Virus record (IMG/VR): IMGVR_UViG_3300034112_002540
Coordinates: 1 to 24,560 of that record
Reading direction: 5' to 3' (one strand)
DNA: 24,560 nt
Source: a virus
Position numbers and translations under genes: made by a program
Part shown: piece after piece, positions 2,653-19,189 of the stretch
Layout of the letters: each line of letters starts with the position of its first letter
Position numbering within the stretch: the stretch's first letter is position 1
Notes under the pieces: model-generated
Told to the model about the DNA's origin: nothing
What the model saw: only the letters and a program-made list of their open reading frames with translations
Databases searched by the model: none

Positions 2653-3293
2653 GAATAAATCCTTGGATGATTTGAGACTGTTGCCGAATTAATATTGGAT
2701 ATAGAGATACCTCTTGCTATATCATTTATAGCACGAATAAGTGGAGCATAAAAAACAAGAGATTGCGGACGCACCTGATAGCAGGACACGCCCCTGCCAA
2801 GGCTGGCAACCTCTTCGGGTGTCAGGGCCACATTCCACACGCCGACCTCCGCCAGATCGCCTGCCCAAAAGTTTTCGTATGTGCTTGCAGTGTTTGACTG
2901 CTGCGCCCCGATGCCCATTTCAGTGAACGTGTTGTACGCGCCGATAGTCGCCGTGCTGGTCACTGCGTTGCCGCCGTTCATGTAGATGGTGCGGCCACTG
3001 AGCGATGTCACAACTCCCGCAGCGTGAACCCACTGATTCACAGACGCGGTCGCCGTGGTGTCGACTGTGGCTGTGGATGACGACACGCCAGCTAGCCGGA
3101 GCGCGCCGGTCGACAGCATGACAATCTGATTTCTGTGTCTCGTCGCCGCTGGCGTCTGCCCTACAGCCATCACCGTGCGCGTGCCTGTCATGGATGTCGG
3201 CCTGCACCACGCCGCGAGCGTCATCGGAAATCCGGTCGCAGGCGCGGAGGAGACGAGCAGATATTGGCTACTTCCGTTGAAGCTTCTTGCCAT
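2649..3293 (-). CDS. LamG / concanavalin-like lectin surface protein (214 aa)
   Basis: The protein begins MARSFNGSSQYLLVSSAP and continues with FPMTLAAWCRPTSMTGTRTV, NQWVHAAGVV, GRTIYMNGG and FWAGDLAEVGVWNVALTPEE. This is the classic order of a laminin-G-like jelly roll (Laminin_G_3 type): FDG..YV, WV.P, W.H.A..Y, YVNG, G.I.EV.IWN.ALT..E. Such domains usually bind glycans. After residue about 175 a short tail (SLVFYAPLIR, SATVSNHPRIYS) follows, seen in other phage LamG proteins. The ATG shares one base with the TAA of the 1683-aa fibre (TAATG). The DNA of the LamG domain is far more GC-rich than its surroundings, pointing to transfer from a high-GC source. It is probably a receptor-binding accessory of the neighbouring fibre. 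Confidence 0.85.
   Translation of the reverse strand: MARSFNGSSQYLLVSSAPATGFPMTLAAWCRPTSMTGTRTVMAVGQTPAATRHRNQIVMLSTGALRLAGVSSSTATVDTTATASVNQWVHAAGVVTSLSGRTIYMNGGNAVTSTATIGAYNTFTEMGIGAQQSNTASTYENFWAGDLAEVGVWNVALTPEEVASLGRGVSCYQVRPQSLVFYAPLIRAINDIARGISISNINSATVSNHPRIYS
2760..3290. other. GC-rich island covering the LamG domain
   Basis: Base composition changes sharply here. For example, 37 of 60 bases at 3001-3060 are G or C, against 15 of 60 at 2101-2160. The island begins at the start codon of the LamG gene and ends near codon 178, so the last 35 or so codons of the gene are AT-rich again. The boundaries coincide with the domain rather than with the gene, suggesting a domain-sized acquisition. 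No insertion sequence ends or transposase are visible. Confidence 0.75.
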
Positions 3294-6200
3294 TATGTCG
3301 CCCTCACTTCTATTGCTGTAAGTTGAGCATCGCCGGTCATAGTATCATTAGTTGCGTCTGCCGCAACTCTATACACACGCAATCTAAATCTATCACCAGC
3401 GGCCAATGAATCTATTGTAGTAATAGTAATTTCAGCAACACTTTCTATACCGCTAGTACCATTTGCTGCACTAGTAACTTGAGCATTAGTATCAAAAGAA
3501 TCAGCATCTAAGTCTGTTCCATATTTTTCAAATTGTACACCCCAACGAACATTTCCGCTTGTTGCTGCATCAGCCATCCACCATATTCTTACCACTAAGC
3601 CATTTGTTAAAGTAGCTGCCTCATCAACTATTCCAACAAAATAAGAACTTTCTTCTGTGGCGGCATCAAAATCTAGAACAAGTATACTATTTCTAGTGTC
3701 CAGAGTTGCAAAATTAGATGATGGCGGATGATTATCTCTCGGTGTAAATTTTTGAATAGTTTTACTATTATTGATAGTATATGTGCCACTAGTCGATGTT
3801 ACTCCAATATTAGTTCCAGCAACTATATTATTTACTGGAATCAAGCCGCTGACAGAGCTACTAAAATCTGTAATATTCGAACTAGTATGAGTATGTGATA
3901 TTGTTGCGTATGTTCCACTAGATAGAGTAGCTATACTACCAAGACCCAATGATGTTCTTTGTGCTGAAGCGTCTGCGCCAGTGAGCAATGCTCGTCCAGC
4001 GGTAGTGCTATCGCTAATTTGGCTAGCAGTATGGGTATGTCCGCTGATACTTACGCCAGTTCCATTAACTTGTAAAGATTGAGTAAAATTACCACTATTG
4101 GAAGATATCAATCCATTACTGGTTAAACCATTACTAAAGGTGTGAACTGCGCTTATAGTTCTTGCATTATCTATGTGAATATATTGACTGTGATCATCAT
4201 CACCTAACCCGAACAAATTTCCGTGATCATTCTGAGTAACTCCTGCGATAGTACTAATTACAGATACTCGTATATCAAGAATACTAAGTAAAGTACATTT
4301 AGGAACATTTGTATAATCGCTATCGCCAGCAAATATTAGTCGATAAAGAGGTTTAACTTCGCTTAATGGAAGATTGGTAAGATTAACATCACCCCAAGAG
4401 TTATGACTCTCAGCCGATCCTTGATTACTATCTACCCTCTGACCCATAATACTAATTATAGGATCATCAATCTGATTAGTTGCAAGAATCCATACTGCAA
4501 AGTATCTTGTTGCTCCACCGGGACTAACATCGGGAATTGTCCAAGTTCCATCAGTTAATAAGTTATATTGTGGTCCATTAGCACCATATTTAACAGGATA
4601 ATCTGTGGCGGTATTCTTAACCCACTGACCAGTGCTTCCTTCGTGATAATAAACGGGAATTTGAGCAATCGGACTTAATTCTTGACAGAATGGATCAGTA
4701 CTAGAACTGTCAGTAACATTTATCTGAATATCTTCTTGATAAAGAGTACCATTACCGATTGATATAGTTGCATGAGTATTGCTAGACCCATTTCCACCTA
4801 AAACATAATTACCAATACTCAAGCCATCAACATATTGCATACCAAAAGTATTATGAATCCACTTGTGAGTGCTGGTATCCATCACGATGCCGTGACGCTC
4901 TTCAGCAAAAAAAGTCATTTGTCCACTAGGACCGACTCCACTATTCCATGCTACATAAGCTATTGGAATATCACTACTAAAATCAAAACTTGTGGTTTTA
5001 TTTGATATTTGATTATTTATGGTATCAAAATGAATATAATTAATTTGGGTAAGATTTGGTATAGTTAAACTATCACCACTAGTTTTAACAACTTTGATGC
5101 CTTGATTATAATAACTATATGAACTTCCTGTGGGTTGTATTGTAAATATATTTCCACTAACACTAATTCTACTATCAGTTCTATTAACAAATCCTTGAGG
5201 CTGTTTACTATCAACATGAACAAGATTTGTTGAAGCGATAGAATAAATTCCACTAGTATTAGTAATAGAAATATCATAACCAGAAGTTATATCTTTTACT
5301 GGTATTAGACCACTAACAGCGCTATTAAAATCTGTAATACTTGAACTAGTATGAGTATGAGATGCATTAGCATAATTGCCAGAAGGTTGCTTCCCATCTA
5401 GGACTGTTTGCAATCCGCTTACATCTGCTATGTTGTGGTTGTGACTTGAATTAGCATAATTTCCAGAGGGTTGCTTGCTATCAAGGGCTGTTTGTAGTCC
5501 ACTCACGTTGGATATAGAATGGTCGTGGTTGGCGGAATTTAAAGTTGTATTATCTGGAAATTTAATGTTGCCACTAGTTGCTGGTAATGTTAATGTACCA
5601 TTTCTATTAAATATCCATTCCATCGCATTATTATCGGGCCAACCTACACCAATATAAATTTCATTATTATCGCTTATCTGTATGTATTGTTCACCATCTG
5701 TGCTGGCAAGACCACCAAATGATCCAGATGGCGACACAAACCAGCTTGACCCATCTTGAGTCTGCCCCGGATAACCCTTAGATATTATACTATTTGTAGG
5801 AGTTATTAAATTACCATTTGTATCAAAAATCCAGTGATTATTATTTGAGTCTGTACCAATAATAACATCGCCACCATTTTTTTCAATTTTAACATATTGA
5901 TCATCATCGCCTAAATAAATATCAACAGTTGAAGGATCTCCTGCCACAAGGTGAATATGACTATGTTCTGAATTAGATATTCCACTGTTAGTAACAGTAA
6001 CAAATTGATTAGTTGGCATACCATTTTCTTCAAAATTATAATATAAGGCTGGATCATTTTCAATTTCTGGATCAGTCGATTCTGTTCCATCGACACTTGT
6101 TAATGTGAGAGTAAATTCAGTAATATTACTATTAGCTGGTATGGTCCAAGTAATAGTTTCTGTATCTGGAGCAGAAGTACTAACGAAAGTTAATTTGCCA

Positions 6201-8344
6201 GTTAATGCTCGACCTAGTGATTGTTGGGTTACTCCAGAACCAGAGATTGTATAGTTTACTGTTCCAAAATAATCCCAGCTTTGTAGCGTAACTGAAATTG
6301 TAATAGGGCTACCATATACTATATAGCCACTAGAATTTAAGATCCAGCTTGCTAGTGTTGGTCTAATAACTAAACTTTGTCCAGAAACTGCCGTTGGAGG
6401 CGTTAGAGCTACTGTGTTATTTGTTTCATTGAGAGTGCCACCACGGGGTAATATTAAATTATTATCTGCTGTGTCAAAAGTCCATCCATCAAAAGCTGAA
6501 ATAGAATTGCCATCTAAGGTATTGATGGCTTTGTTTCCGATAAGAATGCCACTACTATTAACTTCAATCTGTTTTCTGCCGGTTAGCGATGAGCTACCAC
6601 CATCTAAGCTATTAATGGTTTGATTTGCCATCACAACCTTACCATCACTTATTTCAACTAGTGATCCTGCTGACAGCTCTGAACCGCCACCTAAACTATT
6701 GGTGGTTTCATTTGAAATAACAGTCTTTGCAACATCTACTTCAATTTTAGATCCGCTTGATAGTAATAATTCCCCATCGTTAATTATGTTTAGATTGCTA
6801 ATAATACTATCATTAATAGTTAAATTATCTGGGAATTGTAAGAATGTAAAAAATCCACTGGGAGATGAAATAGGTCCAGTAAATGTTGCTCCACTTAATG
6901 GCGCATATATACCACTCACTAGCCCACTCACGCTGATATCAAAATCTGTTATTGCAGAACTAGTATGGCTATGATTTGAGTTAGCGTAATTTCCAGACGG
7001 CTGTTTACCATCTAAAGCTGTTTGCAATCCACTAACATTTGATATTGAGTGGGTATGACTTAAAGCGGCATAATTGCCAGATGGTTGTTTTCCATCTAGC
7101 GTAGTTTGCAAATTAGAGATTTCACTAATATTATGACCATGACCACTAACGCTCACATTAGTTCCATTTACTTGTAAACTTGAAAAATTGCCACTTGCTT
7201 GAGTAGTAATTCCAATATTTGTTGCATTAATATTGCCACTTGGTATAGTTACATATCCAGTAAAAGTTGCTCCAGATAAGGCGGCTTTACCAGCTATATT
7301 ATTTGTAATAGTAGTGGCAAAATTAGGATCATTACCTAAAGCTATTGCTAATTCATTTAGTGTGTCTAATGTAGATGGTGCCGAGGCTACCAAATTACTA
7401 ATTTCTGTTCTTACAAATGAAGTAGAAGCTATCTGATTAGTATTAGTTCCGCTAGAAGCGGTTGGAGTAAGAGGAACTCCGGTTAATGTTGGACTACTTA
7501 GTGGAGCATAAATACCGCTTACTAATCCACTAACACTACTGTTGAAATCTGTTATTGCTGAACTTGTGTGACTATGGCTTGAGTTAGCATAATTACCAGA
7601 TGGTTGTTTACCATCTAATGCTGTTTGCAAGCCACTTACTTCTGTTATTCCATGACCATGGCTATAACTAGCATAGTTACCAGAAAGCTGTATCCCATCA
7701 AGAGCTATTTGCAGTCCAGAAACCTCGCTAATAATATGATTATGAGATAAAGGATTTCTGGCATCAGAAAGCCTATTATCATTAGTAAAAACTACATTAG
7801 TAGATAATCTATTATCGCTTAATATTCCGGTTGTTAATAAACTTGCGTCAGTAGTTGGTGGAGCAACAGAACTGACCGCTGTTGCAAAATCTAATATGTC
7901 TGTAGAATAATGACTATGCACACTGGCCGCATAAGAACCGCTTGGCTGTTTATTGTCCAATTGAGACTGTAGATTTACTATACCGGAGATAGGATGGGTG
8001 TGTGGATTTGGGTTTCTATTATCTGATAATCTATAGTCATCATTAAATAAGGCTTTGCTAGCTGGATATGTACAGAATATTAATGATACCCCTAGTAGAT
8101 CTATGTGAGCATTATTATTACTACTAACTAGTATGGTATCTCTAGATAATGAATTAGTAGACTCTGTATATGTACCAATACCAACTTCAAAATTACTATT
8201 ATTCTCTATTACATAATATGTAGAATTGCCATCGCCAATCCCATCAGAAAATGACTGAAAAGCACCAAATGTGCTATTAAATATAATATTACCACTACCC
8301 TGCGTAATGCTGGTCTGTTTTACTCTATCTGCTACTACTAGCAT
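3293..8344 (-). CDS. Giant tail fibre protein with HxH repeats (1683 aa)
   Basis: This is the largest protein in the window and almost certainly a trimeric fibre shaft. Residues 1-110 form an attachment domain (DRVKQTSITQGSGN, NFEVGIGTYT, FCTYPASKAL) common at the start of phage fibres. Seven copies of a 'LQxxLDxKQPSGxYA' repeat and a partial eighth follow, often with SHSHTSSAITDF and SGLVSGIYAPL. Fourteen HxH motifs are spread along the chain; in the T4 gp37 needle such motifs coordinate iron inside the trimer. The middle has 'W.F..NG.L.LP' beta repeats (WIFDTNGNLITP, WIFNRNGTLTLP) and later a GDDDHSQY element. The last 155 residues (PSSNFATLDTRNSILVLDFD ... DSLAAGDRFRLRVYR) are a beta-sandwich module I know from other phage fibre tips. 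AAGGAAG precedes the ATG, which lies 20 bases inside the previous gene. Confidence 0.88.
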   Translation of the reverse strand: MLVVADRVKQTSITQGSGNIIFNSTFGAFQSFSDGIGDGNSTYYVIENNSNFEVGIGTYTESTNSLSRDTILVSSNNNAHIDLLGVSLIFCTYPASKALFNDDYRLSDNRNPNPHTHPISGIVNLQSQLDNKQPSGSYAASVHSHYSTDILDFATAVSSVAPPTTDASLLTTGILSDNRLSTNVVFTNDNRLSDARNPLSHNHIISEVSGLQIALDGIQLSGNYASYSHGHGITEVSGLQTALDGKQPSGNYANSSHSHTSSAITDFNSSVSGLVSGIYAPLSSPTLTGVPLTPTASSGTNTNQIASTSFVRTEISNLVASAPSTLDTLNELAIALGNDPNFATTITNNIAGKAALSGATFTGYVTIPSGNINATNIGITTQASGNFSSLQVNGTNVSVSGHGHNISEISNLQTTLDGKQPSGNYAALSHTHSISNVSGLQTALDGKQPSGNYANSNHSHTSSAITDFDISVSGLVSGIYAPLSGATFTGPISSPSGFFTFLQFPDNLTINDSIISNLNIINDGELLLSSGSKIEVDVAKTVISNETTNSLGGGSELSAGSLVEISDGKVVMANQTINSLDGGSSSLTGRKQIEVNSSGILIGNKAINTLDGNSISAFDGWTFDTADNNLILPRGGTLNETNNTVALTPPTAVSGQSLVIRPTLASWILNSSGYIVYGSPITISVTLQSWDYFGTVNYTISGSGVTQQSLGRALTGKLTFVSTSAPDTETITWTIPANSNITEFTLTLTSVDGTESTDPEIENDPALYYNFEENGMPTNQFVTVTNSGISNSEHSHIHLVAGDPSTVDIYLGDDDQYVKIEKNGGDVIIGTDSNNNHWIFDTNGNLITPTNSIISKGYPGQTQDGSSWFVSPSGSFGGLASTDGEQYIQISDNNEIYIGVGWPDNNAMEWIFNRNGTLTLPATSGNIKFPDNTTLNSANHDHSISNVSGLQTALDSKQPSGNYANSSHNHNIADVSGLQTVLDGKQPSGNYANASHTHTSSSITDFNSAVSGLIPVKDITSGYDISITNTSGIYSIASTNLVHVDSKQPQGFVNRTDSRISVSGNIFTIQPTGSSYSYYNQGIKVVKTSGDSLTIPNLTQINYIHFDTINNQISNKTTSFDFSSDIPIAYVAWNSGVGPSGQMTFFAEERHGIVMDTSTHKWIHNTFGMQYVDGLSIGNYVLGGNGSSNTHATISIGNGTLYQEDIQINVTDSSSTDPFCQELSPIAQIPVYYHEGSTGQWVKNTATDYPVKYGANGPQYNLLTDGTWTIPDVSPGGATRYFAVWILATNQIDDPIISIMGQRVDSNQGSAESHNSWGDVNLTNLPLSEVKPLYRLIFAGDSDYTNVPKCTLLSILDIRVSVISTIAGVTQNDHGNLFGLGDDDHSQYIHIDNARTISAVHTFSNGLTSNGLISSNSGNFTQSLQVNGTGVSISGHTHTASQISDSTTAGRALLTGADASAQRTSLGLGSIATLSSGTYATISHTHTSSNITDFSSSVSGLIPVNNIVAGTNIGVTSTSGTYTINNSKTIQKFTPRDNHPPSSNFATLDTRNSILVLDFDAATEESSYFVGIVDEAATLTNGLVVRIWWMADAATSGNVRWGVQFEKYGTDLDADSFDTNAQVTSAANGTSGIESVAEITITTIDSLAAGDRFRLRVYRVAADATNDTMTGDAQLTAIEVRAT

Positions 8345-8771
8345 ATTTTGCTTCCTTTTCTGCTCTAGAGATAGCGATTTGTATTATTTTTTTGGCAACT
8401 AATGACGAAAAAGGCAAATGGCGTTTGTCAGCTTCTTCTTTAAGCCATGTTATGATTATATCTATATTATCTTTACACCATTCAGTACCCATATGATTCA
8501 TAATTTTAGCCTTTGCGTTACATGAGCAATTTTCTGAGCTTTTAATGCCCATGTATGCTAATATTTTTTTAAGCTCGGTTCCAGCACCATTTTGCATATT
8601 TTTTACTATATTTTCTACGCTTTTTTTGTATTTTGGATATTTTGGGTGGTCAGTGTCTATAGTCCACATATCTTCATTTTTAGATATTATACATTCAGAA
8701 ACTTCTTCTAAAGAATAGTTTCTTTCTGCGCATCTAGCTAGAAAATAATTTTTATGAGTCTCTATTATCAT
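8325..8771 (-). CDS. Conserved Cys-motif phage protein, function unknown (148 aa)
   Basis: The N-terminal half (MIIETHKNYFLARCAERNYS ... MWTIDTDHPKYPKY) is followed by GAGTELKKILAYMGIK and a Cys block, NCSCNAKAKIMNHMGTEWC, with cysteines at residues 82, 84 and 99. A helical tail (NIDIIITWLKEEADKRHLPF, IIQIAISRAEKEA) closes the protein. I recognise this 'CxC...A..M...G..WC' arrangement from proteins scattered across phages and environmental bacteria, but know no established function. Zinc binding is possible but three cysteines plus His-93 is only suggestive. The ATG overlaps the TGA of the poly-Thr gene (ATGA, 8768-8771), and the 3' end overlaps the giant fibre gene by 20 bases, so it is embedded in the fibre operon. 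It could be a non-virion helper for fibre production, by inference only. Confidence 0.65.
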   Translation of the reverse strand: MIIETHKNYFLARCAERNYSLEEVSECIISKNEDMWTIDTDHPKYPKYKKSVENIVKNMQNGAGTELKKILAYMGIKSSENCSCNAKAKIMNHMGTEWCKDNIDIIITWLKEEADKRHLPFSSLVAKKIIQIAISRAEKEAKYASSSR

Positions 8772-9394
8772 AAATCTATATCTTTTTCGATCTCTGTTTC
8801 AGATTGTATATAATATGAATAATATGGTGATTCTGTTGTTGTAGTAGTGGTGGTCGTTGTTACCGCCACGCATGGTTCTGGGGTAGTGGTTGTAGTGGTA
8901 GGGAAAATAATGCTTAATATAGCAACATTACTGATTTTAAGAGTTGGTGAAGATATAATAACTCTATATTTATATCCATTTTTTTCGCTAGATGCTTTAA
9001 TAATATTACTATATACTTGTCTAGATTTTCCATATCTAGGGCGTGATAGTTTTGACCAAGAAGTTCCGTTATTACTAGAATATTCAATCCAATATTTGTA
9101 ATCTATATCATTAGCAGAAATAGCGCTAAAACTTAGCGTAGTATTTGCATTAAGATTAACATTTTGATTAGTTGGATGAGTTAAAAAATCTATAATAAAA
9201 GGGGCAGTAGTTGTAGTTGTTGTAGTAGTTGGCAATTCATAATACTGTTCCAAAGGAACGCATAAAAAACTAGCGCCACCAAAAGGTCTTACAGTATCGT
9301 TAATAATAATATTAGATGGCAATTTATCGCAACAAGGGTCTGTTTCTTGAGCATTGATGCTATGAATTTCTAAGATAATGTGATCATTATTCAA
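8768..9394 (-). CDS. Poly-Thr linked surface protein, 3' part of an interrupted gene
   Basis: The frame shown starts at a TTG at 9392-9394, but it is open for a further 70 codons upstream to a TAA at 9605-9607, with no ATG or GTG and no convincing ribosome binding site. The protein has three threonine runs of 8, 6 and 9 residues (9206-9229, 8882-8899, 8834-8860). Between the first two is a globular domain (DYKYWIEYSSNNGTSWSKLS ... GYKYRVIISS) reading like an Ig or fibronectin-type fold: a 'W..S.DGG.TW..L' strand followed by 'Y.yRv.vs.p'. The C-terminal end is short and Tyr-rich. The poly-Thr runs are probably flexible linkers, as in the two genes upstream. I think this is the body of a 323-residue protein whose first 45 codons are at 9605-9742. 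Its stop overlaps the next ATG. Confidence 0.65.
   Translation of the reverse strand: MNNDHIILEIHSINAQETDPCCDKLPSNIIINDTVRPFGGASFLCVPLEQYYELPTTTTTTTTAPFIIDFLTHPTNQNVNLNANTTLSFSAISANDIDYKYWIEYSSNNGTSWSKLSRPRYGKSRQVYSNIIKASSEKNGYKYRVIISSPTLKISNVAILSIIFPTTTTTTPEPCVAVTTTTTTTTTESPYYSYYIQSETEIEKDIDL
8834..8899 (-). repeat. Poly-threonine tracts (9 and 6 codons)
   Basis: ACN runs at 8834-8860 (9 Thr) and 8882-8899 (6 Thr) are separated by a short Pro-Glu-Pro-Cys spacer near the C-terminus of the interrupted poly-Thr protein. ACC codons are commoner here than in the other tracts. Confidence 0.88.
9206..9229 (-). repeat. Poly-threonine tract, 8 codons
   Basis: Eight ACT or ACA codons precede the Ig/fibronectin-like domain of the interrupted poly-Thr protein. 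The tract begins after Pro and ends with Ala-Pro, the same punctuation as in the neighbouring genes. Confidence 0.88.
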
Positions 9395-9604
9395 GTTATG
9401 TATGTTAGAAGTGCTGAGTTCTATAGTAGAAATTGTAGTAGTAGTATTAATTTGTCCAATATATTTTTCTGCTAGTATGGTTTTGGTATTTTTGTTTTTT
9501 ATTATAACATGAATAATATTATTTATTACAAATGGTGAAGTAAAATAAATAGTAAATTGTTTTGGAATAATAGATTCTTCAATCTCTTCTGTAATTGTTT
9601 TAAA

Positions 9605-9607
9605 TTA
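9605..9607 (-). other. In-frame TAA interrupting a surface-protein gene
   Basis: TAA at this place separates 45 codons that begin with a well-placed ATG from 278 further sense codons in the same frame (9604 down to 8771), for which I see no normal start. The complete stretch 8768-9742 is 325 codons including both stops. TAA is used as the ordinary stop in other genes here (for example at 239, 2233 and 3293), so a whole-genome TAA reassignment is unlikely. A sequencing error, a real nonsense mutation or programmed readthrough remain possible. Confidence 0.65.
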
Positions 9608-9742
9608 ATCGCCAGATTCAAGATACACATCTTGAGAATGTATAAAGGCATAGTGATATATACTATTAATAGCAATAAAAAGTCCACTTGGATTTATAAT
9701 TCCGCCTTTAGGAATAAACATTTTGCCAAATGGACAAGTCAT
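9605..9742 (-). CDS. 45-aa ORF, probable N-terminal part of the interrupted poly-Thr gene
   Basis: The ATG at 9740-9742 overlaps the TGA of the 769-aa gene (ATGA), a good coupled start. The protein begins MTCPFGKMFIPKGGIINPSG and ends with VYLESGD before TAA. It is too short to be a domain on its own. The codons immediately after the TAA, in the same frame, continue FKTITEEIEESIIPKQFTIY and stay open for 278 residues into the poly-Thr protein. The simplest reading is one gene split by a single nonsense codon. If it is a true small protein, no function is evident. The opening TCPFGK resembles nothing I can name. Confidence 0.5.
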   Translation of the reverse strand: MTCPFGKMFIPKGGIINPSGLFIAINSIYHYAFIHSQDVYLESGD

Positions 9743-12048
9743 GGTAGTGGATTTTCTTCTGGTGGAATTAATGAATATGAACATGGTATAGTAATTAGAG
9801 TTTCATAATTAATTATATTACTACAATTACCATTGCTATCTAAAGCGGGGCAATCAGAAAATGCTAGGTCTGGTACTGATGGACAACTAGAGGCAAAGTA
9901 AACAGACGGAGTAGCTCCATATAAATCAACAAATCTGTTTATCATTTGTTGTTGCGTAAGATTACAACAAGAATACAATACTATTTCATTAGAGCTTAAT
10001 GACAAGTTGGGTTGACATGAATTAGATATTTTTGAACAATGAAGGGTTTGTTTGCACAAAACATATATTAAATTATCGCATGGCGCAGGCGTAGTAGTGG
10101 TTGTTGTTGTAGTAGTTGTAGTAGTGGTAGTAGGCACTGCTAAACCGGTTAAAATACCAGTTTGAGATCCGCCACCCTGTGGCATACCATTAATATAAAT
10201 TGCATATCTATTATAGTCAGCTTCTAACGCATACGCTACCGGAGAAGATAACTGTGTCATAGTTGGACTTGATGGAAAGTAATATCCTGCAACTGGAGAA
10301 TAATTAACATATCCAGCAAACGTATTGCTGTTCTGTGGTGCCAATAAGGTTAATTTATTTGGTGAAATAGTTCCATCAGTTATGCTATCTATAAAATCAA
10401 TAGTAAACGTATATGAAGGCAGCGGTGCTGATGTTGTTGTAGTAGTTGTAGTAGTTGGTGCAGCAGTAGTGGTGGTTGTAGTAGTTGTAGTGGTAGTGGT
10501 AGTGCCGATAAAAAATGTAGCATTTACTCTATCATCTCCCTCGCTTCTTTTTTCATCTTTATAATATGCAATGACTAAGAATGTTTTTACGTTGGGGTCA
10601 AGAGGGATAGTTATATTTCTAGAACCAACACTTGATCCAACTCCCGTGATCTGAGAATTTATAAATGATGCATTTTGTAAAGATTTATATTTTAATGAAT
10701 TATTATATTCTGACCAATACTGCTGAGTGTGTTGGGTTGGTTCATTATTGTTTCCGCTAGACACTACTAGCCAGACAGATGCATAGTCTTTTTGAGACTC
10801 GCAAGAAGTATTAATATTAAATTCTAGTGGTCCAGATTTATTAATCTGTAGCCACAAAGCATTAGTATCTCCGTGTTGACCGCCAAGCCAACATACTATT
10901 GGATCTTCTGGAGATCCATCCCCACTTAAATAATAATCATCAAATGGTGATATTATGCCGTATGGCGTTTGTTGTCCCCAAAGAGAAGACATATTGGTAT
11001 TACTAACTATATTACTTCTATAGGAAAAAACTGGACCAGAACCGTCAAGAGGCTTAGATATGGTGGGATCACATCTTCCTAATTCTATAGTGTAATTTTG
11101 TTGTACTGTATCAAATCTTTTTGGGATAAAGTGATCATCTATATTAATATTAACACTATAGATACCAGTTTGTCCGGTATTTTCTGTTAAAAATAATTCA
11201 TTGTTTTCTATTAAAAAGTAATCTGTGTTTGGTCCAGATAGGGTAATGTTATGAGGACCACAGTAGTTTTCTAAAGTAATGTCTGCAAGTTTAAATTTGA
11301 TGTTTCTATTTGGAGCTTGTGTAGTTGTTGTGGTAGTAGTTGTTGTGCCTCTAGCAAACACGTCTGTATATTCAAATATGCTGACTCCATTTTTAATTTG
11401 TGCAATTTGTGATATAGATCCATTATATCCAACAGTAGTTGGAGTAATAGAAAATTGATCTGGTACATTATATGAAATACTATCTTCAATAATATTTTTA
11501 GATAATATAATTTTGTTAGGATTAGAGAAATTTAAATAATCATCTATTTCAAATGGAGATAATGTGTGTAAACCAGAATCATCGTCTGATGATAGTGAAA
11601 AAGATCTTTTCAGCGGCAACGACTGTAGATAATGAAACCATTCACAAATAATCAATCCCATTCCATATGCAACTACTTGATTTATTAATGCTGACTGCCC
11701 ACCGTCTGGCATTCTTGTTCCACCAAGTGGGTTGTATGATGGAAACAATAAAAAAGTAGAGACTGATGGTAAAGAGTCATGACCAGAAAAATTATACCAT
11801 TTATTTACTATAGATGTGGCGTATCCAACTGAATTTAAAGTAGAAATAATTAAATTGTTAAATATAGTATTTTCAGTATCACATAAATAAACTATGTTGT
11901 TGGGTCTTCTTGCTGACCAATGTACTGTATTTATAAAAAGCCTTTTAAAATTTTCGTTTTGCAAATCTGTAGTATTAATAGCTTTAGAAAACGCTGCTAC
12001 ATTTCCATATCCGCGCCTCCATCCAGCTAATCCTATTGAGTTAGCCAT
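9739..12048 (-). CDS. Multidomain poly-Thr linked surface adhesin (769 aa)
   Basis: This is a string of domains joined by threonine linkers. Residues 1-234 look like an alpha/beta domain of the glutamine-amidotransferase-like type (GYGNVAAFS, NENFKRLFINTVHW, NNIVYLCDTEN, VVAYGMGLIICEW), with no catalytic residues I can confirm. A run of 9 Thr follows. Then comes a cadherin-like domain (IKFKLADITLENYCGPHNI, GPNTDYFLIENNELFLTEN, IYSVNINIDDHF) and a beta-rich domain of about 200 residues (LWLQINKSGPLEFNINTSC). Runs of about 13 and 8 Thr, separated by AAP, lead to a further small domain, then 14 Thr and a C-terminal domain with ten cysteines. The ATG has an AGGAAGA ribosome binding site. The likely role is binding a host or particle surface. 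The amidotransferase-like call is weak; the cadherin-like one is firmer. Confidence 0.7.
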   Translation of the reverse strand: MANSIGLAGWRRGYGNVAAFSKAINTTDLQNENFKRLFINTVHWSARRPNNIVYLCDTENTIFNNLIISTLNSVGYATSIVNKWYNFSGHDSLPSVSTFLLFPSYNPLGGTRMPDGGQSALINQVVAYGMGLIICEWFHYLQSLPLKRSFSLSSDDDSGLHTLSPFEIDDYLNFSNPNKIILSKNIIEDSISYNVPDQFSITPTTVGYNGSISQIAQIKNGVSIFEYTDVFARGTTTTTTTTTQAPNRNIKFKLADITLENYCGPHNITLSGPNTDYFLIENNELFLTENTGQTGIYSVNINIDDHFIPKRFDTVQQNYTIELGRCDPTISKPLDGSGPVFSYRSNIVSNTNMSSLWGQQTPYGIISPFDDYYLSGDGSPEDPIVCWLGGQHGDTNALWLQINKSGPLEFNINTSCESQKDYASVWLVVSSGNNNEPTQHTQQYWSEYNNSLKYKSLQNASFINSQITGVGSSVGSRNITIPLDPNVKTFLVIAYYKDEKRSEGDDRVNATFFIGTTTTTTTTTTTTTAAPTTTTTTTTSAPLPSYTFTIDFIDSITDGTISPNKLTLLAPQNSNTFAGYVNYSPVAGYYFPSSPTMTQLSSPVAYALEADYNRYAIYINGMPQGGGSQTGILTGLAVPTTTTTTTTTTTTTTPAPCDNLIYVLCKQTLHCSKISNSCQPNLSLSSNEIVLYSCCNLTQQQMINRFVDLYGATPSVYFASSCPSVPDLAFSDCPALDSNGNCSNIINYETLITIPCSYSLIPPEENPLP
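10090..10131 (-). repeat. Poly-threonine tract, 14 codons
   Basis: Fourteen consecutive ACN codons form the linker before the Cys-rich C-terminal domain of the 769-aa protein. Codons are mixed (mostly ACT and ACA, some ACC and ACG), with no more than three identical in a row. Bases 10102-10125 are identical to bases 10432-10455, a 24-base direct repeat. Confidence 0.9.
10432..10503 (-). repeat. Double poly-threonine tract (8 and 13 codons)
   Basis: Two runs of ACN codons, 10432-10455 (8 Thr) and 10465-10503 (13 Thr), flank a short Ala-Ala-Pro spacer in the 769-aa protein. The first run shares 24 identical bases with the tract at 10102-10125. Confidence 0.9.
11320..11346 (-). repeat. Poly-threonine tract, 9 codons
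   Basis: Nine ACN codons link the N-terminal alpha/beta domain of the 769-aa protein to its cadherin-like domain. The tract is followed by Gln-Ala-Pro, similar to the Gln-Ser-Pro that ends the tract at 12558-12584. Confidence 0.9.
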
Positions 12049-12056
12049 ATATCTTC

Positions 12057-12806
12057 CTATACTTGATAATAAAAGTATTGTGACAAATTAGTTGTTTCTG
12101 GTATATTAGGGCCGCTCCAACTTAATTTTAATGAATCAAATCCAGTTCCTGCACTATATATTAACCTAATTGGATAGTATTTGGTAGCCAATAAAGGTCT
12201 AGAAGCTGAAGCAATTTTTTGGTTTATATTATCTGTACTAGATATTAGAGTATTATATACTATAGCATTAGTTGAATTTCTTCCAGATGTAGAATTTGCT
12301 AAAGTGTCAAACCATATAGCGCTTCTATAATTACTAGTAGTATAAAATCTATAAGGACCATTGATGGGCGGTTTAAAATAACCAAATGCGATAAAGCTAT
12401 AATTGTTCCCCACATTACTATAATCTATATTTGATAAAATTATTCCATTTGTTATTGGTACAGAAATATTAACATCTCCATATTCAAATGTTTCTGATGA
12501 ACTACTAGACATATTAAATTTAGCTTTTAATCCACCAATAGCGTATATAGGGCTTTGAGTAGTTGTTGTAGTTGTTGTAGTTGTTAAAACCACGGGGCAT
12601 GGTTTTCCACTGGTTGGGATATGTATAATATCTAAAATATCTTGTGGATATCCAGTAGTTGTTGTAGGCGTGACCGTAGTGGTGGCTGGAGATGGCGATG
12701 TAGTTAAAGACAAGTATGGCCTGTCTGGTACATCTAGAAATTGATCGTGTTTTTTCCCAGCCGCAACCGGCCTAAAACAACTATCATTTAAACAATCGTC
12801 ACTCAT
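12057..12806 (-). CDS. GLEYA/PA14-like adhesin with poly-Thr linker (249 aa)
   Basis: Residues 1-75 are a low-complexity, Thr- and Pro-rich head with cysteines at positions 5, 10 and 70. A run of nine threonines (residues 75-83) then leads to a beta-rich domain of about 165 residues. Its core, IAFGYFKPPINGPYRFYTTS followed by NYRSAIWFD and later YYPIRLIYSAGTGFDSLKLS, fits the PA14/GLEYA pattern 'GY..aP.tG.Y.F...s.d...lw.....YYPiRi.y....g...l.l.w'. GLEYA and PA14 domains bind sugars in fungal and bacterial adhesins. The ATG lies six bases after the stop of the 1127-aa gene with no obvious Shine-Dalgarno sequence, so translation is probably coupled. A carbohydrate-binding role on the virion surface is inferred from the domain family. 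Confidence 0.72.
   Translation of the reverse strand: MSDDCLNDSCFRPVAAGKKHDQFLDVPDRPYLSLTTSPSPATTTVTPTTTTGYPQDILDIIHIPTSGKPCPVVLTTTTTTTTTQSPIYAIGGLKAKFNMSSSSSETFEYGDVNISVPITNGIILSNIDYSNVGNNYSFIAFGYFKPPINGPYRFYTTSNYRSAIWFDTLANSTSGRNSTNAIVYNTLISSTDNINQKIASASRPLLATKYYPIRLIYSAGTGFDSLKLSWSGPNIPETTNLSQYFYYQV
12558..12584 (-). repeat. Poly-threonine tract, 9 codons
   Basis: Nine ACN codons, all ACT or ACA, separate the N-terminal region of the 249-aa protein from its GLEYA/PA14-like domain. The alternating ACA and ACT pattern gives a near 9-base period. Confidence 0.9.
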
Positions 12807-12811: not shown

Positions 12812-15800
12812 TTAGCTATAATAGCTTACCCACATTGGTCTATATTCGCCATTTACTCTTATAGCAACTACATAATCATTCTTGTTTATTCTTAGGAATG
12901 GATCTCTATTATAGATGGTTGTGTATGGGTCTTGACCGGGAGGCACTGTTTTGTCTTGCCATGAATTACCAACCTTTACTTTTTGCCTTATTCTTCCAGT
13001 AGCCGCTGTGCTTGCGTTTGGTGGGGCAGATATGTTTTCTTGAGCAAAACCCTCTATAATTAAACTATCAAAATCATTTCTAAGCGTTGTGTTGGCGGCA
13101 GTAGTATTAGATAAAGCTCCAGAAATAGCCACCCCACTATTACTTAAACGGGTAATATCATCTAAGAAACTACCAGACTCAACAGCTTTAGATCCATCAC
13201 TAAATCTTAATGCGCCAAGTAATCTTAAATCTCCTTTTAGTTCGCCATATGGTCTTGCTGTTGCTGGAGATGTGTAAGTTACACTCTTAGAGATTGGATT
13301 TGCAGTGTGATCTAATTTAAATAATTCAGCAGTACTATTTCCAGTAAATTTAAATGATAGAGATACGTCTGGATAGTTTGATCCACCGCCATCTACTACC
13401 TCTATTGTGTTTGCTTGTAATTTTAGACTCTCATTAGAGTTATTAATTAGTGATAATTTACCTTCTGGCAAGAAAGTATTTTTTGTAAGTATATTTCCAG
13501 ACATAAGAACATTACTATCTGATCCAAGCATAAAGATATTGCTTGTTCCACCAGTGTAAGTATTTGCTAAGTTATATCCAATAATAATATTATTAGATCC
13601 AGTAGTTAAAGATTGAGCAGAATTAGAACCTAGTATGACATTATTATTTCCAGTTGTGGTACCGCTTCCGGCGGCATATCCTACAACGGTGTTATTATTG
13701 CCACCATTAACATAAGATAATGCTCTATATCCTAAAGTTGTATTTCTTATACAGGTCGATAAAGCAGATTTAGTATTTGGAGATAATCTCCCACCGAAAG
13801 TATTTCCATTATCATCTGCTAATAAAGGTTTATCTATATTTTGTCCATTTAGATCAACAGAATTCATTACTACTTCAAATAAATTTCCGCTAGAATCTAA
13901 GAAATTTAAAGAAGATGATTTAGCTTCATCATTTTGTGATTTAGTAAATATTTTGGCATATCCAGCGTGTCCAGATGGTATTCCAGATGAATGATATAGA
14001 CTTACAACGGCTTCTGAATTACCGGAACTGCCGACCATTAGCATGGAATGCGGTATGCCACTAGAAAATATGCCAATTTTGTTTCCGCTATTGGAAATTT
14101 TTAGTGCCGTTTGTTTATTTTCATTATTATATGTATTGATATTAAACAGATTGCCAGAAATGCTATATTCAAACTCAACGCCATATTTTAAACAATTTTC
14201 TTTGCCTAATAATTGTAAAGCAGATACTGTATTATCGTTATTTTCTGCCGTGGCTCTAATGATTGCATTGCCAGTACTTCTAATGTTTAATATTGTATCT
14301 GGAAGCATATTATCTGCATATGCAAAATTACTAATTCCAACATATCCATCTGATGCATCTTGTAATAAAGTAAATGACCTTTTTGCATAGGATGAATTAT
14401 TAAAAGATTTAACTAAAAATCTAGAAGGATTTTGACCAACTTGCTCATTGAAGAACATTGGAGCTTCTAAAGTTGAATCAGCAACATAAGATAATTCAAA
14501 TCCTGTTAGATTTTCTTTATTATTATCTTCGTCAATTGTTATGCCAGAGGTATTAGACAAAAATCTTTGATTAATATTAACGCCAGAGTTTGGGCTGACG
14601 TATGATATAGTATACTGATCGGTTTCGCCTGAGTTAGCAATAAAATTTACATCACTAGCTGATAACAAATTTCTAGAGATATTATGTTGATTAGCACAAT
14701 ACAATTTACCACTTATGACATAATAACCAAGACCATCGTCGTATGTTAATAATCCTATTGATGAATTATTTAATACTCTATCTGTTTCTACATGGCATCC
14801 AGCAGAGGTAGATATGCTAATATTAGAACGCCAAGAAGATCTAGAATAGATATTATCTATAGATAGATTATTTAGTAAGCTGTCTTGTGATCTAAAAATA
14901 AATTCATAAGTTCTTTCGTAGTCTATACCTCTTGATCTGGCATTAAATCCAGCGCCATTCAATTCTTCATCCAATAAATATCCACTTGGTATAACAGTTT
15001 CTTCATTTGGGGTGTAATAATCATAAAGACCATTTGGGCCACCACCGTCGATAACATTTAAATAGCCACTGGATGCTAAGTTAATTGTTTTATGTAAATA
15101 GTGCGATTGCTCAACGGCTTCAAATCTTTTGAATCTACCAATACCGCTGACATAAATATTTCCAGTATAAGTATTGAGCCACTGTCTATCTAGTTCGCCT
15201 AAGTCAAATAATTTATGAACTCTTGGCGTTAAATGACCACTGACGCTTGCATCACCACTCACAACAAGATCACCATTTATATTGGCATATGATCCAATAT
15301 TGGCGTGTCCGGTTGCTAATAAATTTCCACTTATTGTAGCGCTGCCACCAATAGATGCTGGGCCAGCTACGACTATATCATTACTAATTAAAAATTTATT
15401 ATTAGTATCATCATAAGTAATATAATCATCGTTAGTAAAGTAAATAGATCTTGATAAATAAATACTTCTCCATCTATATGTGCTATGTCCAATGTCAAAT
15501 GTTTTTAACGAATCTGATGGATGAAAATTACCACTGATCTGTAGAGTTGCTCCTTCATGCAATCCAGAAACAGCAATACCAACTCTTAAATTACCAGAAG
15601 ACATATCTCCTTGAATTAATGGGACCAGACCAAGACCTTCTGGGTTTCCACATAAAAAGGTTTCATCAATAGGATGAGAAGCAATAAATAATCTATTATT
15701 AGTATCTCTATCAACATAGTAACCAGCACCATGTCCGATAGCTATATTGAAATTTCCAATTCTATTATTATGTAGTGCAAAACTTCCAATGCCAACATTA

Positions 15801-16195
15801 CCAAAGCCATTAGTATTGCCAGCTAGAGAATGATAACCTAAAGCGGCATTGTCTTCACCATAGATGTTGCAACTTAATGCGTTCGAACCAATGGCAGTAT
15901 TGTGAACACCTTGATAATTTGCATTGAGTGCATAATATCCTATTGCAGTATTATCTACTGAAAAATATCCATCAAGACCAAGTTTGTCTAGAGCAAAGTT
16001 ACCAACTTTGGTAGATCTAGTATCTGGAGTATCAAAATTTTTTGCTTTTAAATTTTGTGATCCTGTTAATAAATGAACAGAATCAATAATATCTAAAAGA
16101 TTATGGCGAATATCATATGGTGAAATTTGCGATGTTGAATTATCTGATATCTCTCTAACTATATTTTCTACCAGTTGTGGCTTTGATAGAATCAT
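12812..16195 (-). CDS. Large fibre protein with YadA-like beta-roll repeats (1127 aa)
   Basis: Residues 1-50 (LVENIVREISDNSTSQIS, RHNLLDIIDSVHLL) form an adaptor also found in the 310-aa fibre. From about 75 to 165, repeats such as DNTAIGYYALNAN, HNTAIGSNALSC and GNVGIGSFALHNN follow the 'NxAIGxxAL' pattern of YadA-type beta-roll heads. A second block near residues 815-890 (NNNTVVGYAAGSG, NNNVILGSNSAQSL) repeats the pattern. In between are many 'SG.L...G.A.I.G' beta repeats typical of trimeric fibres. The C-terminus (DPFLRINKNDYVVAIRVNGE) shows no peptidase S74 chaperone motif. The protein is probably a trimeric surface fibre. It follows the 226-aa tail protein after 14 bases. The start is an ATG with only a weak upstream purine stretch. 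Confidence 0.82.
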   Translation of the reverse strand: MILSKPQLVENIVREISDNSTSQISPYDIRHNLLDIIDSVHLLTGSQNLKAKNFDTPDTRSTKVGNFALDKLGLDGYFSVDNTAIGYYALNANYQGVHNTAIGSNALSCNIYGEDNAALGYHSLAGNTNGFGNVGIGSFALHNNRIGNFNIAIGHGAGYYVDRDTNNRLFIASHPIDETFLCGNPEGLGLVPLIQGDMSSGNLRVGIAVSGLHEGATLQISGNFHPSDSLKTFDIGHSTYRWRSIYLSRSIYFTNDDYITYDDTNNKFLISNDIVVAGPASIGGSATISGNLLATGHANIGSYANINGDLVVSGDASVSGHLTPRVHKLFDLGELDRQWLNTYTGNIYVSGIGRFKRFEAVEQSHYLHKTINLASSGYLNVIDGGGPNGLYDYYTPNEETVIPSGYLLDEELNGAGFNARSRGIDYERTYEFIFRSQDSLLNNLSIDNIYSRSSWRSNISISTSAGCHVETDRVLNNSSIGLLTYDDGLGYYVISGKLYCANQHNISRNLLSASDVNFIANSGETDQYTISYVSPNSGVNINQRFLSNTSGITIDEDNNKENLTGFELSYVADSTLEAPMFFNEQVGQNPSRFLVKSFNNSSYAKRSFTLLQDASDGYVGISNFAYADNMLPDTILNIRSTGNAIIRATAENNDNTVSALQLLGKENCLKYGVEFEYSISGNLFNINTYNNENKQTALKISNSGNKIGIFSSGIPHSMLMVGSSGNSEAVVSLYHSSGIPSGHAGYAKIFTKSQNDEAKSSSLNFLDSSGNLFEVVMNSVDLNGQNIDKPLLADDNGNTFGGRLSPNTKSALSTCIRNTTLGYRALSYVNGGNNNTVVGYAAGSGTTTGNNNVILGSNSAQSLTTGSNNIIIGYNLANTYTGGTSNIFMLGSDSNVLMSGNILTKNTFLPEGKLSLINNSNESLKLQANTIEVVDGGGSNYPDVSLSFKFTGNSTAELFKLDHTANPISKSVTYTSPATARPYGELKGDLRLLGALRFSDGSKAVESGSFLDDITRLSNSGVAISGALSNTTAANTTLRNDFDSLIIEGFAQENISAPPNASTAATGRIRQKVKVGNSWQDKTVPPGQDPYTTIYNRDPFLRINKNDYVVAIRVNGEYRPMWVSYYS

Positions 16196-17006: not shown

Positions 17007-18014
17007 TTAGAACGAACCAAGAATTACTCTACGGTTGTCTAGAACACCAAAGCCAAGCTCTGCCCAACCATAGTAACCAGCGCGTTGCTGACGGTGGAGA
17101 CTTGGGTCTTCGTAGACCTGTAGCTGCTCCTTGACGGGCATTACGAAACTATCTCTTGTTGAAAGGTCAAGACCAACAACAAGTTCAAGATCGCTACCCT
17201 GTACAGCACCACTTAGTTGATTGGTGAAGAATGACTGATATTCTTGACCTTCGCCAAGCTCATCAAGATCACGTAGGTTAACACCAAAGATACGTGTGAT
17301 TGGAGCGCCACCGGCTGGAGCGGTGTAGATCTCACGACGAGTTACCTCGTCAACTTGATCAAAACCCCAATTACGAATATCTTCTAGAGCTTCTGGTGAT
17401 ACATACATGTCTGTTAGACGGCCACGACCAATTGAAGCAGAGTTACCACCGCTGTTGCGGCGCATAACGGTCTGCATCAAAGATACTAATCTCTTGCTGA
17501 ATAGACCGGCTGTTGCATCACCGTCATAGACGAGGATGTTGCGGTCAACGCCAGCGGCGAGAAGAGTGTGCCAGCCGTCATCGTTCATCTTCTTTGTAAA
17601 ACCAGCTTCCATTACCTGCATGGCACGACCAACGATGTCCCATCTTGCTTCGCGGGCATAGCGAAGGAGATAGTCAACCGATGAAGCGATTGTGTAGGTT
17701 GGAATCATCACGTAGTCGCCTTCCACACTGCGCTCTGGAATTCTACCGTGGCCGGGATTGGTGTAAGCGACATGCTCACCTTCTAGGCCGGGAGAAACTA
17801 GGTCGAGTGGGAATTCGGTTGTTGAACCGGCTTCCACATTGATGGTTTCGAAAATATCGCCAAGGATATTTCCAACTAGAACGCCTTTACGAAGAGGAAG
17901 TTCTAGAGCTTTAGCAAACTCACGTTGAGCAGCCGCAGCTACGTTGATATCGGCATCCCCTGACTTGCGTAGGAGAGCGATGAATTCGTCACTAGGTCTT
18001 TTATTCTCTGGCAT
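17007..18014 (-). CDS. Major capsid protein (335 aa)
   Basis: The protein forms the icosahedral shell. The length, the position after protease-scaffold and decoration genes, and the sequence all fit an HK97-fold capsid protein. The N-terminal helix (SDEFIALLRKSGDADINVAA) is followed by an extended arm (EFPLDLVSPGLEGEHVAYTN, GDYVMIPTYTIASSVDYLLR), the long spine helix (ARWDIVGRAMQVMEAGFTKK), and an A-domain stretch (GRGRLTDMYVSPEALEDIRN) that is typical of this group. The C-terminus (GYYGWAELGFGVLDNRRVIL) also fits. The ATG follows AAAAGGAGAATT, a strong ribosome binding site. The gene is richer in G+C than the fibre genes (33 of 60 bases at 17041-17100), as expected for a very highly expressed virion gene. 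It is followed by a terminator. The exact capsid family is not certain. Confidence 0.9.
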   Translation of the reverse strand: MPENKRPSDEFIALLRKSGDADINVAAAAQREFAKALELPLRKGVLVGNILGDIFETINVEAGSTTEFPLDLVSPGLEGEHVAYTNPGHGRIPERSVEGDYVMIPTYTIASSVDYLLRYAREARWDIVGRAMQVMEAGFTKKMNDDGWHTLLAAGVDRNILVYDGDATAGLFSKRLVSLMQTVMRRNSGGNSASIGRGRLTDMYVSPEALEDIRNWGFDQVDEVTRREIYTAPAGGAPITRIFGVNLRDLDELGEGQEYQSFFTNQLSGAVQGSDLELVVGLDLSTRDSFVMPVKEQLQVYEDPSLHRQQRAGYYGWAELGFGVLDNRRVILGSF

Positions 18015-18043: not shown

Positions 18044-18520
18044 TCAGGGTAGGTTGACTTCGACTTTGGCATAACCGTCAGCATCCTTAGAAGTAAGGAA
18101 GCGACCAATAAGTAACGCACCCGAAGCTGCGGCACTTGCGGCATCCTTGCGGATGTAACCAGCGGTAGCAGTGCAGGCATAGGCGGGATCACCAGCAGCG
18201 GGACTGCCAGTAACCATATTGGTAACAACGTAACCCTTACGGAGAATAGTGACTTTGCCACCCTTCTGTACTTCATCCTTGTGTTGATTAAGGTGAGTAC
18301 GGGTTAGATCCTTGTTAACAACGTCGTTAAGAAGAATACCAACGGGAACATTTGTAGCTGACACTGTTGTGTACTTCACAAGGTTTACACCTTGATCCAT
18401 TGAAGCGCCAGAACCGGCAGTAGTATCATGAACAACAACGCCGCCGCGAGTAACGGCACCATCATTGTAGAAGAAACTAATGTCTGTTTGAAGTTCGTAT
18501 CTATCTGATTTTAGAGCCAT
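18044..18520 (-). CDS. Head decoration-like protein (158 aa)
   Basis: The protein begins MALKSDRYELQTDISFFYND and contains RGGVVVHDTT, VPVGILLNDVVNKD, KGGKVTILRKGYVVTNMVTG and AAGDPAYACTATAGYIRKD. The scheme 'G.V.........PVG.l...v....G....V...G......v.G....Gd..y....G...' is that of small beta-rich capsid decoration or stabilising proteins, which sit on the outside of the shell. It lies directly before the capsid gene (29 bases between), the usual place for such proteins. The start is ATG after AAGGAGAAATAAATT. GC content is also raised here, in keeping with high expression. Confidence 0.75.
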   Translation of the reverse strand: MALKSDRYELQTDISFFYNDGAVTRGGVVVHDTTAGSGASMDQGVNLVKYTTVSATNVPVGILLNDVVNKDLTRTHLNQHKDEVQKGGKVTILRKGYVVTNMVTGSPAAGDPAYACTATAGYIRKDAASAAASGALLIGRFLTSKDADGYAKVEVNLP

Positions 18521-18541
18521 AATTTATTTCTCCTTGTTAAA

Positions 18542-19189
18542 TCACTTACGTAGTACGTTTTCTGTTAGCCACTGAGCCACACTTGCTCTGGTAGCATGAA
18601 GTTCATCGTTTACATCAGAGGCATCGACTAAAGCAGCTTCGGTTGAATGAACACCATCAAAAAGTGTTTCAGCAACTTCTTCGATCTTTTCTTCTGAAGC
18701 TGTTACTGATGCTTTAGGATTGGCACTTTCATTTTCTTCATCCTTTGTGACATTCTCTTTGACTTCCATCTTCTTGCCACCCTTGCCCATTTTCTTCTTA
18801 TACATGGCAACGATAGCATCGAAAGCAGAATCATCTAGATTATCATAAAATGAAAGAGATTCGTCAGCTTCTGACTCTTCAAAACCAGATGACACAAGCT
18901 TTTCCTTGCGCATACGGTCTTTCTCTTTCTTCTTCATGTTCATCATCTCTGCGTCTTTAGCTGCGATTGCGTCTTGTAGCTCTTTAATAGCAATTTCGTT
19001 AGCTTTTAGTGTCTCTTCAAGAGCCTTAAAAGCTTCTGTTTTTTCTGTGAGACTAGCTTCAAGTGCAGAGATTGTTGCTGCATAGTCCTTCTCTGGCACT
19101 ACTTCAACTTGCGCTGGTGTAGCCTCATTTGTTGTTACAATTGGTGCTGACTCTTCAGCTACCACTGTTTCTACATTGGTATCAGACAT
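18542..19189 (-). CDS. Nested scaffold protein from internal start (215 aa)
   Basis: An ATG at 19187-19189, codon 262 of the protease-scaffold gene and in the same frame, begins MSDTNVETVVAEESAP. Eight bases upstream is AAAGGAG (19198-19204), as strong as the sites in front of the capsid and decoration genes. Such a site is unlikely to be kept by chance inside a coding region. The product would have the acidic head, the coiled coil and the charged C-terminus, but no protease part. The arrangement equals that of lambda C and Nu3, where the scaffold is made in excess from an internal start in the protease gene. That the shorter protein is made is an inference. Confidence 0.68.
   Translation of the reverse strand: MSDTNVETVVAEESAPIVTTNEATPAQVEVVPEKDYAATISALEASLTEKTEAFKALEETLKANEIAIKELQDAIAAKDAEMMNMKKKEKDRMRKEKLVSSGFEESEADESLSFYDNLDDSAFDAIVAMYKKKMGKGGKKMEVKENVTKDEENESANPKASVTASEEKIEEVAETLFDGVHSTEAALVDASDVNDELHATRASVAQWLTENVLRK

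Follow-up and report, generated by a model that had tools for sequence, protein, structure and literature searches.

Mucin-type O-glycosylation in animals is the work of polypeptide GalNAc-transferases (family GT27), the Epa/Flo adhesins of yeast bear Ser/Thr-rich stalks, and the receptor-binding fibres and Gly-rich adhesin tips of tailed phages are modular and fast-changing. We analysed a virus record of 24,560 bases (IMG/VR record IMGVR_UViG_3300034112_002540; "the window" means its whole length), in which three tandem genes, here called A, B and C, encode proteins whose domains are joined by runs of threonine. Poly-Thr tracts with a proline at the third position after the run (+3) are coupled to one family of phage glycosyltransferases of the GT2 type, and we regard it as probable, with clear reservations, that the proteins act as adhesins on the virion and that a phage enzyme of this kind attaches O-glycans to their Pro-capped Thr spacers. 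According to an excerpt of PMC2335299, Pro at −1 and +3 favours mucin-type O-glycosylation; a passage of PMC9996832 says nothing on Pro context. The glycosylation sites reported on mycobacteriophage virions (Freeman 2023, as given in parts of PMC12619734 and PMC10568470) lie at the C-terminal ends of the subunits that form capsid and tail tube. The preliminary description of the window had stated that poly-Thr proteins occur in environmental phages without a described function. They are frequent there: a DNA pattern of 13 poly-Thr codons was found in at least 120 stretches of environmental phage DNA, and no described role for such proteins in phages turned up among the papers listed by the literature searches.

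The three genes and their tracts, all on the minus strand, are as follows.

12057-12806: gene A, 249 amino acids; short N-terminal segment, tracts of 4 and 9 Thr, and a PA14/GLEYA-like domain (from the open reading frame, Pfam and PDB)
12654-12665: tract of 4 Thr, followed by GYP (gene A)
12558-12584: tract of 9 Thr, followed by QSP (gene A)
9739-12048: gene B, 769 amino acids; five-part modular protein with four long Thr tracts (from the open reading frame, alignments and a model)
11320-11346: tract of 9 Thr, followed by QAP (gene B)
10465-10503: tract of 13 Thr, followed by AAP (gene B)
10432-10455: tract of 8 Thr, followed by SAP (gene B)
10090-10131: tract of 14 Thr, followed by PAP (gene B)
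8768-9742: gene C, broken, the last Thr-linked module of its relatives gone (ATG at 9742, TAA at 9605-9607)
9206-9229: tract of 8 Thr, followed by APF (gene C), the sole exception in the window to Pro at +3
8882-8899: tract of 6 Thr, followed by PEP (gene C)
8834-8860: tract of 9 Thr, followed by ESP (gene C), with 21 residues after it

The eight runs of at least six Thr, 6 to 14 residues long (A, 9; B, 9, 13, 8 and 14; C, 8, 6 and 9), are exactly those that had been counted in these three consecutive genes, and they lie far beyond chance: shuffling the residues of A, B and C 5,000 times each gave a mean of 0.0006 to 0.0012 such runs per protein. Pro had also been noted at the tract ends, and it stands at +3 in seven of the eight. 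The window's phage is a member of an uncultivated tailed-phage lineage. Its capsid protein has relatives in at least 598 IMG/VR stretches, the best 80 of which (83 to 100% identity) served as the capsid loci, and zero matches among 50,697 named phage records.

Throughout the lineage, Pro follows at exactly +3 after 86% of 147 tracts, with tract ends defined on Thr/Ser runs; when tracts were grouped by similar downstream sequence, +3 was Pro in 46 of 58 clusters, with 5 ties and 7 clusters in which it was not. After the 120 runs of six or more Thr, Pro occupied +3 in 78% and the neighbouring positions far less often (+1, 16%; +2, 15%; +4, 7%; background, 6.3%), and it stood at −1 in 31%, against the same background. 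Longer runs obeyed the rule more strictly, at 98% for nine or more Thr (46 runs) and 81% for six to eight. The two residues between tract and Pro, and the residue after it, were variable, and all four Pro codons were used at +3 (CCA, 51; CCT, 23; CCC, 10; CCG, 9). DNA patterns, which ignore reading frame and require that the next codon not begin with A, gave 34 T6-x-x-P sites and 3 T6-x-x-x-P sites in sixteen contigs. The T8-x-x-P pattern had 6 sites in the window and 5 sites in 5 of 296 genomes from the phylum of a Flavobacteriales metagenome-assembled genome, where the reversed control had 7. The rule is looser in poly-Thr phages outside the lineage, with Pro at +3 in 57% and at +2 in 42% (73 loci and 198 tracts, leaving out retrieved loci L104 and L106 and five lineage loci; L-numbers denote retrieved loci and G-numbers lineage contigs). 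An independent poly-Thr sample of 216 runs, leaving out L104, L106, L168 and L170, gave 45% and 30%. Short runs in all other open reading frames showed no even rise (54% after three Thr, 43% after four or five), and this set contains redundant copies and is of no use as a control.

In L076, a GT2-type glycosyltransferase gene (18317-19462) that matches PF00535 above its cut-off sits between a poly-Thr gene and the fibre gene. When every open reading frame (ORF) with 150 codons or more was searched across the loci retrieved, nine members of this family came to light: two beside arrays of the window's lineage (L076 and L085), five among the stretches found only through the poly-Thr DNA pattern (L132, L133, L135, L182 and L183) and two in the regions of G001 and G005. 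Three are located as follows.

L132, 4243-5091: GT2-type enzyme
L135, 3895-4755: GT2-type enzyme
L183, 11612-12460: GT2-type enzyme

A scan of IMG/VR with the enzyme returned 532 relatives. Among the best 80 loci (L294-L373), 65 held a Thr tract, and in 59 the ORF immediately preceding the enzyme gene in the same orientation was a poly-Thr one; the tracts of these loci, 80% of them with Pro at +3, numbered 280 on the enzyme's strand and 0 on the opposite strand. For comparison, an identical scan with a GT1 family from this lineage, a control with its own query (best 80 of 320), gave a tract in 9 of 80 loci and a poly-Thr ORF directly upstream in none. With near-identical enzymes removed, a poly-Thr ORF lay directly upstream in 43 of 59 enzyme loci, compared with 0 of 56 control loci (Fisher p 1.4e-18). 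Core genes of the window's lineage lie nearby in 33 of the 80 enzyme loci, only a homologue of the 148-amino-acid protein encoded next to gene C in 12, and neither in 35, and the upstream poly-Thr ORF is present in 24, 10 and 25 of them, respectively. Among 12 large lineage contigs, the enzyme occurred in 8 of the 10 with Thr-rich tracts and in 0 of the 2 without (Fisher p 0.09). An apparent independence of glycosyltransferase and tracts (GT2 in 5 of 7 contigs with tracts and 3 of 5 without) was discarded, since the strict DNA pattern misses the tracts of G004, G007 and G009. Several GT1 genes, often clustered, were also seen in each of G004, G007, G008, G009, G011 and G012.

All 24 aligned members of the enzyme family retain D-x-H, GGEE and W-x-H-x-F motifs, and all 24 match PF00535 with an E-value of 0.1 or less (1.6e-14 for the strongest); PF02709 is matched weakly by 2 of the 24. 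We take the D-x-H, the GGE and the later His, invariant in this alignment, to resemble those of GT27. Profile searches of the PDB gave the TarP GlcNAc-transferase as best match (1.7e-7 and 8.3e-7) and no GALNT; the three members tried against named phages had zero matches, and PHROGs gave one weak match among the 24. In loci whose capsid protein is 78 to 81% identical to that of the lineage, the enzyme lies within the head-fibre block, and tens of kilobases separate it from the capsid gene in G001 and G005, so its absence from a 24.6-kb fragment is unsurprising. Outside the part covered by the window, the phage's genome probably encodes this GT2-type enzyme, as is seen in several of the large lineage contigs. 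Action of a phage glycosyltransferase on the tracts, which had been raised as a possibility, thus receives strong indirect support from the upstream coupling and the Pro context; the modification itself is predicted from sequence.

These observations suggest a mechanism. The block between the head and tail-fibre genes would encode surface adhesins of the phage particle, in which conserved N-terminal parts, probable anchors, bear strings of mostly beta-rich modules and T(n)-x-x-P tracts space the modules. A phage-coded GT-A glycosyltransferase of one family would O-glycosylate the tracts and so turn them into extended, protease-resistant spacers. Because the tracts end with Pro at +3 and adjoin a glycosyltransferase gene in relatives, they are probably sugar-coated spacers; we infer both the glycan and the virion location and binding role of A-, B- and C-type proteins.

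Several findings weigh against virion adhesins with glycosylated spacers. Tracts are present and the enzyme family absent in G002 and G006; the family occurs in 0 of 11 lineage contigs shorter than 69 kb and does not figure in the family matches of the window. At least 9 of 80 loci have an upstream neighbour of the enzyme that is poor in Thr-rich sequence: of the 15 enzyme loci without a tract, the upstream ORF is Thr/Ser/Pro-rich in 6 and not in 9. Because poly-Thr loci led to the family and hits were ranked by likeness to the L076 enzyme, these 80 loci cannot be read as randomly sampled. The upstream poly-Thr proteins of 42 of the 59 loci, scanned with Pfam, showed Hint in 3, an InlB-type repeat in 1 and zero adhesin families. 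A, B and C each match 0 PHROG families, those of phage tail fibres included, and 52 of the 80 capsid loci have no run in the stretch covered, many of these stretches ending early. Calcium lectins of the PA14/GLEYA type have an Asp-Asp pair in the binding loop; this pair is kept in the PA14 domains of L010 and L012 (SDDGS) and absent from those of the window (SNYRS) and L216 (SQQGS). The structure models used below are of modest confidence.

The tracts might instead be bare structural spacers, the +3 Pro blocking the pairing of a Thr run with the next domain and the enzyme modifying some other target, for example the surface of the host or a different protein of the virion. The variability of the residues around the Pro, the stricter rule after longer runs and the contigs with tracts and no enzyme all fit this. 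It leaves unexplained why tract genes are so closely paired with a single glycosyltransferase family, as well as the preference for Thr over Ser or Gly (homopolymer runs of six or more in the 80 capsid loci: T, 101; G, 22; S, 2; K, 1; R, 1), and we consider it unlikely. A further reading, to which we give a rather small chance, accepts the enzyme's action on the neighbouring protein and places its substrate in Cys-rich or other modules; the upstream partners that are not Thr-rich speak for it. The Thr tract is nonetheless the most widely shared feature of these loci (65 of 80), and the domains adjoining it differ.

Glycosylated adhesins of the virion, the reading we prefer, are also consistent with gene order. 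The minus strand, which carries the main genes, includes a ClpP-type head protease, a terminase, head proteins, a LamG protein and small genes, with portal and scaffold genes named from position and size only, and the array lies between the head genes and the tail-fibre gene. Its neighbours, all on the minus strand, are:

17007-18014: major head protein, the lineage marker (phrog_2522, E 4.9e-4)
12812-16195: virion structural protein of 1,127 amino acids, upstream of the array (phrog_6002)
8325-8771: Cys-containing protein of 148 amino acids, overlapping the stop of C (homologues in 62 loci by profile, and near the GT2-type enzyme in 12 of the 80 enzyme loci)
3293-8344: tail fibre of 1,683 amino acids, downstream of the array (PHROG and Pfam PTR)

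The proteins could alternatively serve the surface of the infected cell, as the lack of PHROG families for A, B and C would allow; their position within a morphogenesis block makes this improbable. The widest named match of the terminase was Microcystis phage MaeS, at 25%. Neither tail sheath nor photosystem families were found in the 12 large lineage contigs (0 of 12 each), a weak test on fragments, nor was the reverse transcriptase PF00078, a sign of diversity-generating retroelements, in the same 12, which are possibly fragments. In L010 to L012, gene B is 63% identical to that of the window and the capsid proteins are 95 to 97% identical. The nearest array is that of L216, with DNA identity of 79% up to 9240 and 92% from 8771 on. 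Gene B as sole query found no relative in IMG/VR or among named phages.

The domains recognized in the three proteins, again on the minus strand, are listed below.

12093-12461: PA14/GLEYA-like domain of A, residues 116-238 (Pfam and PDB matches)
11347-12048: conserved N-terminal alpha/beta domain of B, D3 (alignment, model)
11071-11307: cadherin-like beta domain of B, about residues 248-326 (model, structural match)
10507-10866: jelly-roll-like beta domain of B, about residues 395-514 (model, weak structural matches)
10147-10416: third beta domain of B, about residues 545-634 (model)
9742-10083: Cys-rich C-terminal domain of B, kept in relatives (alignments, model)
8900-9202: Ig-like region of C (fold judged from the homologue in L010)

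The GLEYA/PA14-like domain named in the preliminary description matches both Pfam families above their cut-offs (GLEYA, 5.2e-8 and 33.5 bits against 26.2; PA14, 6.7e-8 and 32.9 bits against 24) as well as yeast Epa1 (1.1e-7) and Flo5 in the PDB, and an adhesin is the likely reading for A and its relatives. Also upheld are the Ig-like domain, a clear fold in the L010 homologue of C (Z 11.3, root-mean-square deviation 1.7, 85 residues), and the Cys-rich domain, conserved at the C-terminal end of B. The cadherin-like domain is a borderline structural match only (Z 7.8, root-mean-square deviation 2.7 over 83 residues). The amidotransferase-like domain proposed for the N-terminus of B was abandoned: eight of eight homologues matched nothing in Pfam at E up to 2, the PDB gave no profile match, and the invariant columns of six aligned sequences contain no Cys. 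The fold search barely probed this domain, as the whole-B matches were filled by the beta domains. As for the mucin-like, modular adhesive coat once envisaged, the genes next to the head genes do encode Thr-linked proteins built from modules of adhesin type, and the Pfam Mucin profile stayed below its cut-off (24.0 bits against 34.7).

In the record as it stands, gene C is broken. Its ATG at 9742 overlaps the stop of B, and an in-frame TAA at 9605-9607 ends the frame where L010 to L013 read on; the ORF at 8768-9394 is therefore the downstream remainder of gene C, and these two signals rule it out as an intact gene starting with TTG. The 21 residues after the last tract correspond in L010 to a 179-amino-acid domain and in L012 to an unlike domain of 129 amino acids. 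The stop codon and the missing module reflect either decay or an assembly error.

The 136 poly-Thr proteins of the lineage reduced to 63 non-redundant ones, 61 of which were scanned with Pfam (omitting a 125-amino-acid ORF in L272 and, in L055, an ORF that lies upstream of the gene for the capsid protein); matches were Gly_rich_2 in 6, PA14 and GLEYA in 4 each, RCC1, FGE-sulfatase and fn3 in 2 each, and F5/8 type C in 1. A Hint/intein-type domain was seen in poly-Thr proteins of L076, L085 and L088 (Pfam Hint in 2 of the 61), and an FGE-sulfatase-type module, which we take to be C-lectin-like, in L049, L057 and L222 (8001-11228). Cupredoxin-like domains form the N-terminus of poly-Thr proteins in L016 (20258), L030 (20259), L036 (20475), L046, L051, L052 and L227 (10663), with an apparent type-1 copper site, judged from its motif.

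Module replacement between relatives would often break at tracts. Breakpoints fell within 15 residues of a tract in both partners in 55 of 296 cases (4.9 expected) and in at least one partner in 173 of 296 (70.5 expected), with same-locus pairs excluded; 87 of 240 unique positions were near a tract, against an expectation of 29.7 that rises to 45.0 (maximum, 63) when tract interiors are allowed, and tract masking biases the breakpoint ends. Of 15 breakpoints in pairs at least 60% identical, 8 lay at tracts in both partners. L020 and L034 differ by a 39-amino-acid module between tracts, the L014/L022 and L010/L012 pairs diverge after a tract, a cupredoxin-like module is joined in L227 to D1, the beta domain of gene C aligned from 14 loci, and in L222 a Gly-rich domain (Gly_rich_2) takes the place of the PA14 domain of gene A. 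The FGE-sulfatase-like insertion of L222 lies within a beta domain of B, away from tracts. In L237, the neighbouring genes at 7571-8881 and 8892-9974 have stretches in common at the tracts, 93% identical, which suggests a recent duplication.

Such patterns could mean that the tracts are kept for their DNA, the ACN repeats being short shared stretches for module shuffling; recombination at poly-Ser/poly-Thr is raised as a possibility in a portion of PMC6821194, and the DNA homology of L010 and L012 (944 aligned bases) stops in a tract. Breakpoints at the DNA level are confounded by tract-to-tract matches, and the recent-looking exchange between L046 and L225 (95% over 379 bases) begins away from a tract. 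Thr codons are used in lineage tracts much as they are elsewhere, with no excess of adjacent identical codons (0.313 observed, 0.299 expected). Both the codon mix and the Pro rule argue for a role at the level of the protein, and a role of the DNA itself seems very improbable. Slippage or an assembly artefact, to which low-complexity DNA, tract lengths that differ between relatives and same-codon runs of 10, 13 and 15 in three tracts of other loci might point, is contradicted by the mixed codons and the Pro rule, is opposed by tract positions kept at 63% identity and by the enzyme coupling, and can practically be dismissed.

An acceptor-like signature genetically coupled to an enzyme makes the function directly testable. 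If virion adhesins do carry glycosylated tracts, many uncultured phages would bear mucin-like sugar brushes, with consequences for adsorption, particle protection and host range, and a new, simple O-glycosylation tool might become available. We tentatively propose a phage counterpart of mucin-type O-glycosylation, in which the DxH/GGEE GT-A enzyme would start glycans on virion T(n)-x-x-P tracts, giving bottlebrush spacers that might also be joints for trading modules.

Among known systems, phage head decoration proteins of the Ig-like kind have the Ig-like module in common with the present proteins, and one structural match is to Shigella phage Moo19 (chain 9d7z_K, Z 10.1); a capsid location would be putative here. 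Like receptor-binding fibres and Gly-rich tips, the proteins are modular and fast-changing, as the Gly_rich_2 replacement in L222 illustrates; they differ in matching no PHROG and in combining a Thr-tract architecture with a glycosyltransferase partner. Gene A shares its domain with Epa1 and Flo5 of yeast, whereas here the setting is a phage, the Asp-Asp pair is missing in the window and L216, and the tracts are pure Thr with Pro at +3. Phage glycosyltransferases and surface proteins are common to this system and, in the excerpts cited above, to mycobacteriophage virion glycosylation, with Thr linkers as the candidate sites here instead of subunit C-termini. The animal GT27 system differs in that the enzyme here is of phage origin and closest by PDB profile to TarP, with no GALNT match, and the tracts of the lineage share with animal mucin-type O-glycosylation the Pro at −1 (31%) and at +3 (86%).

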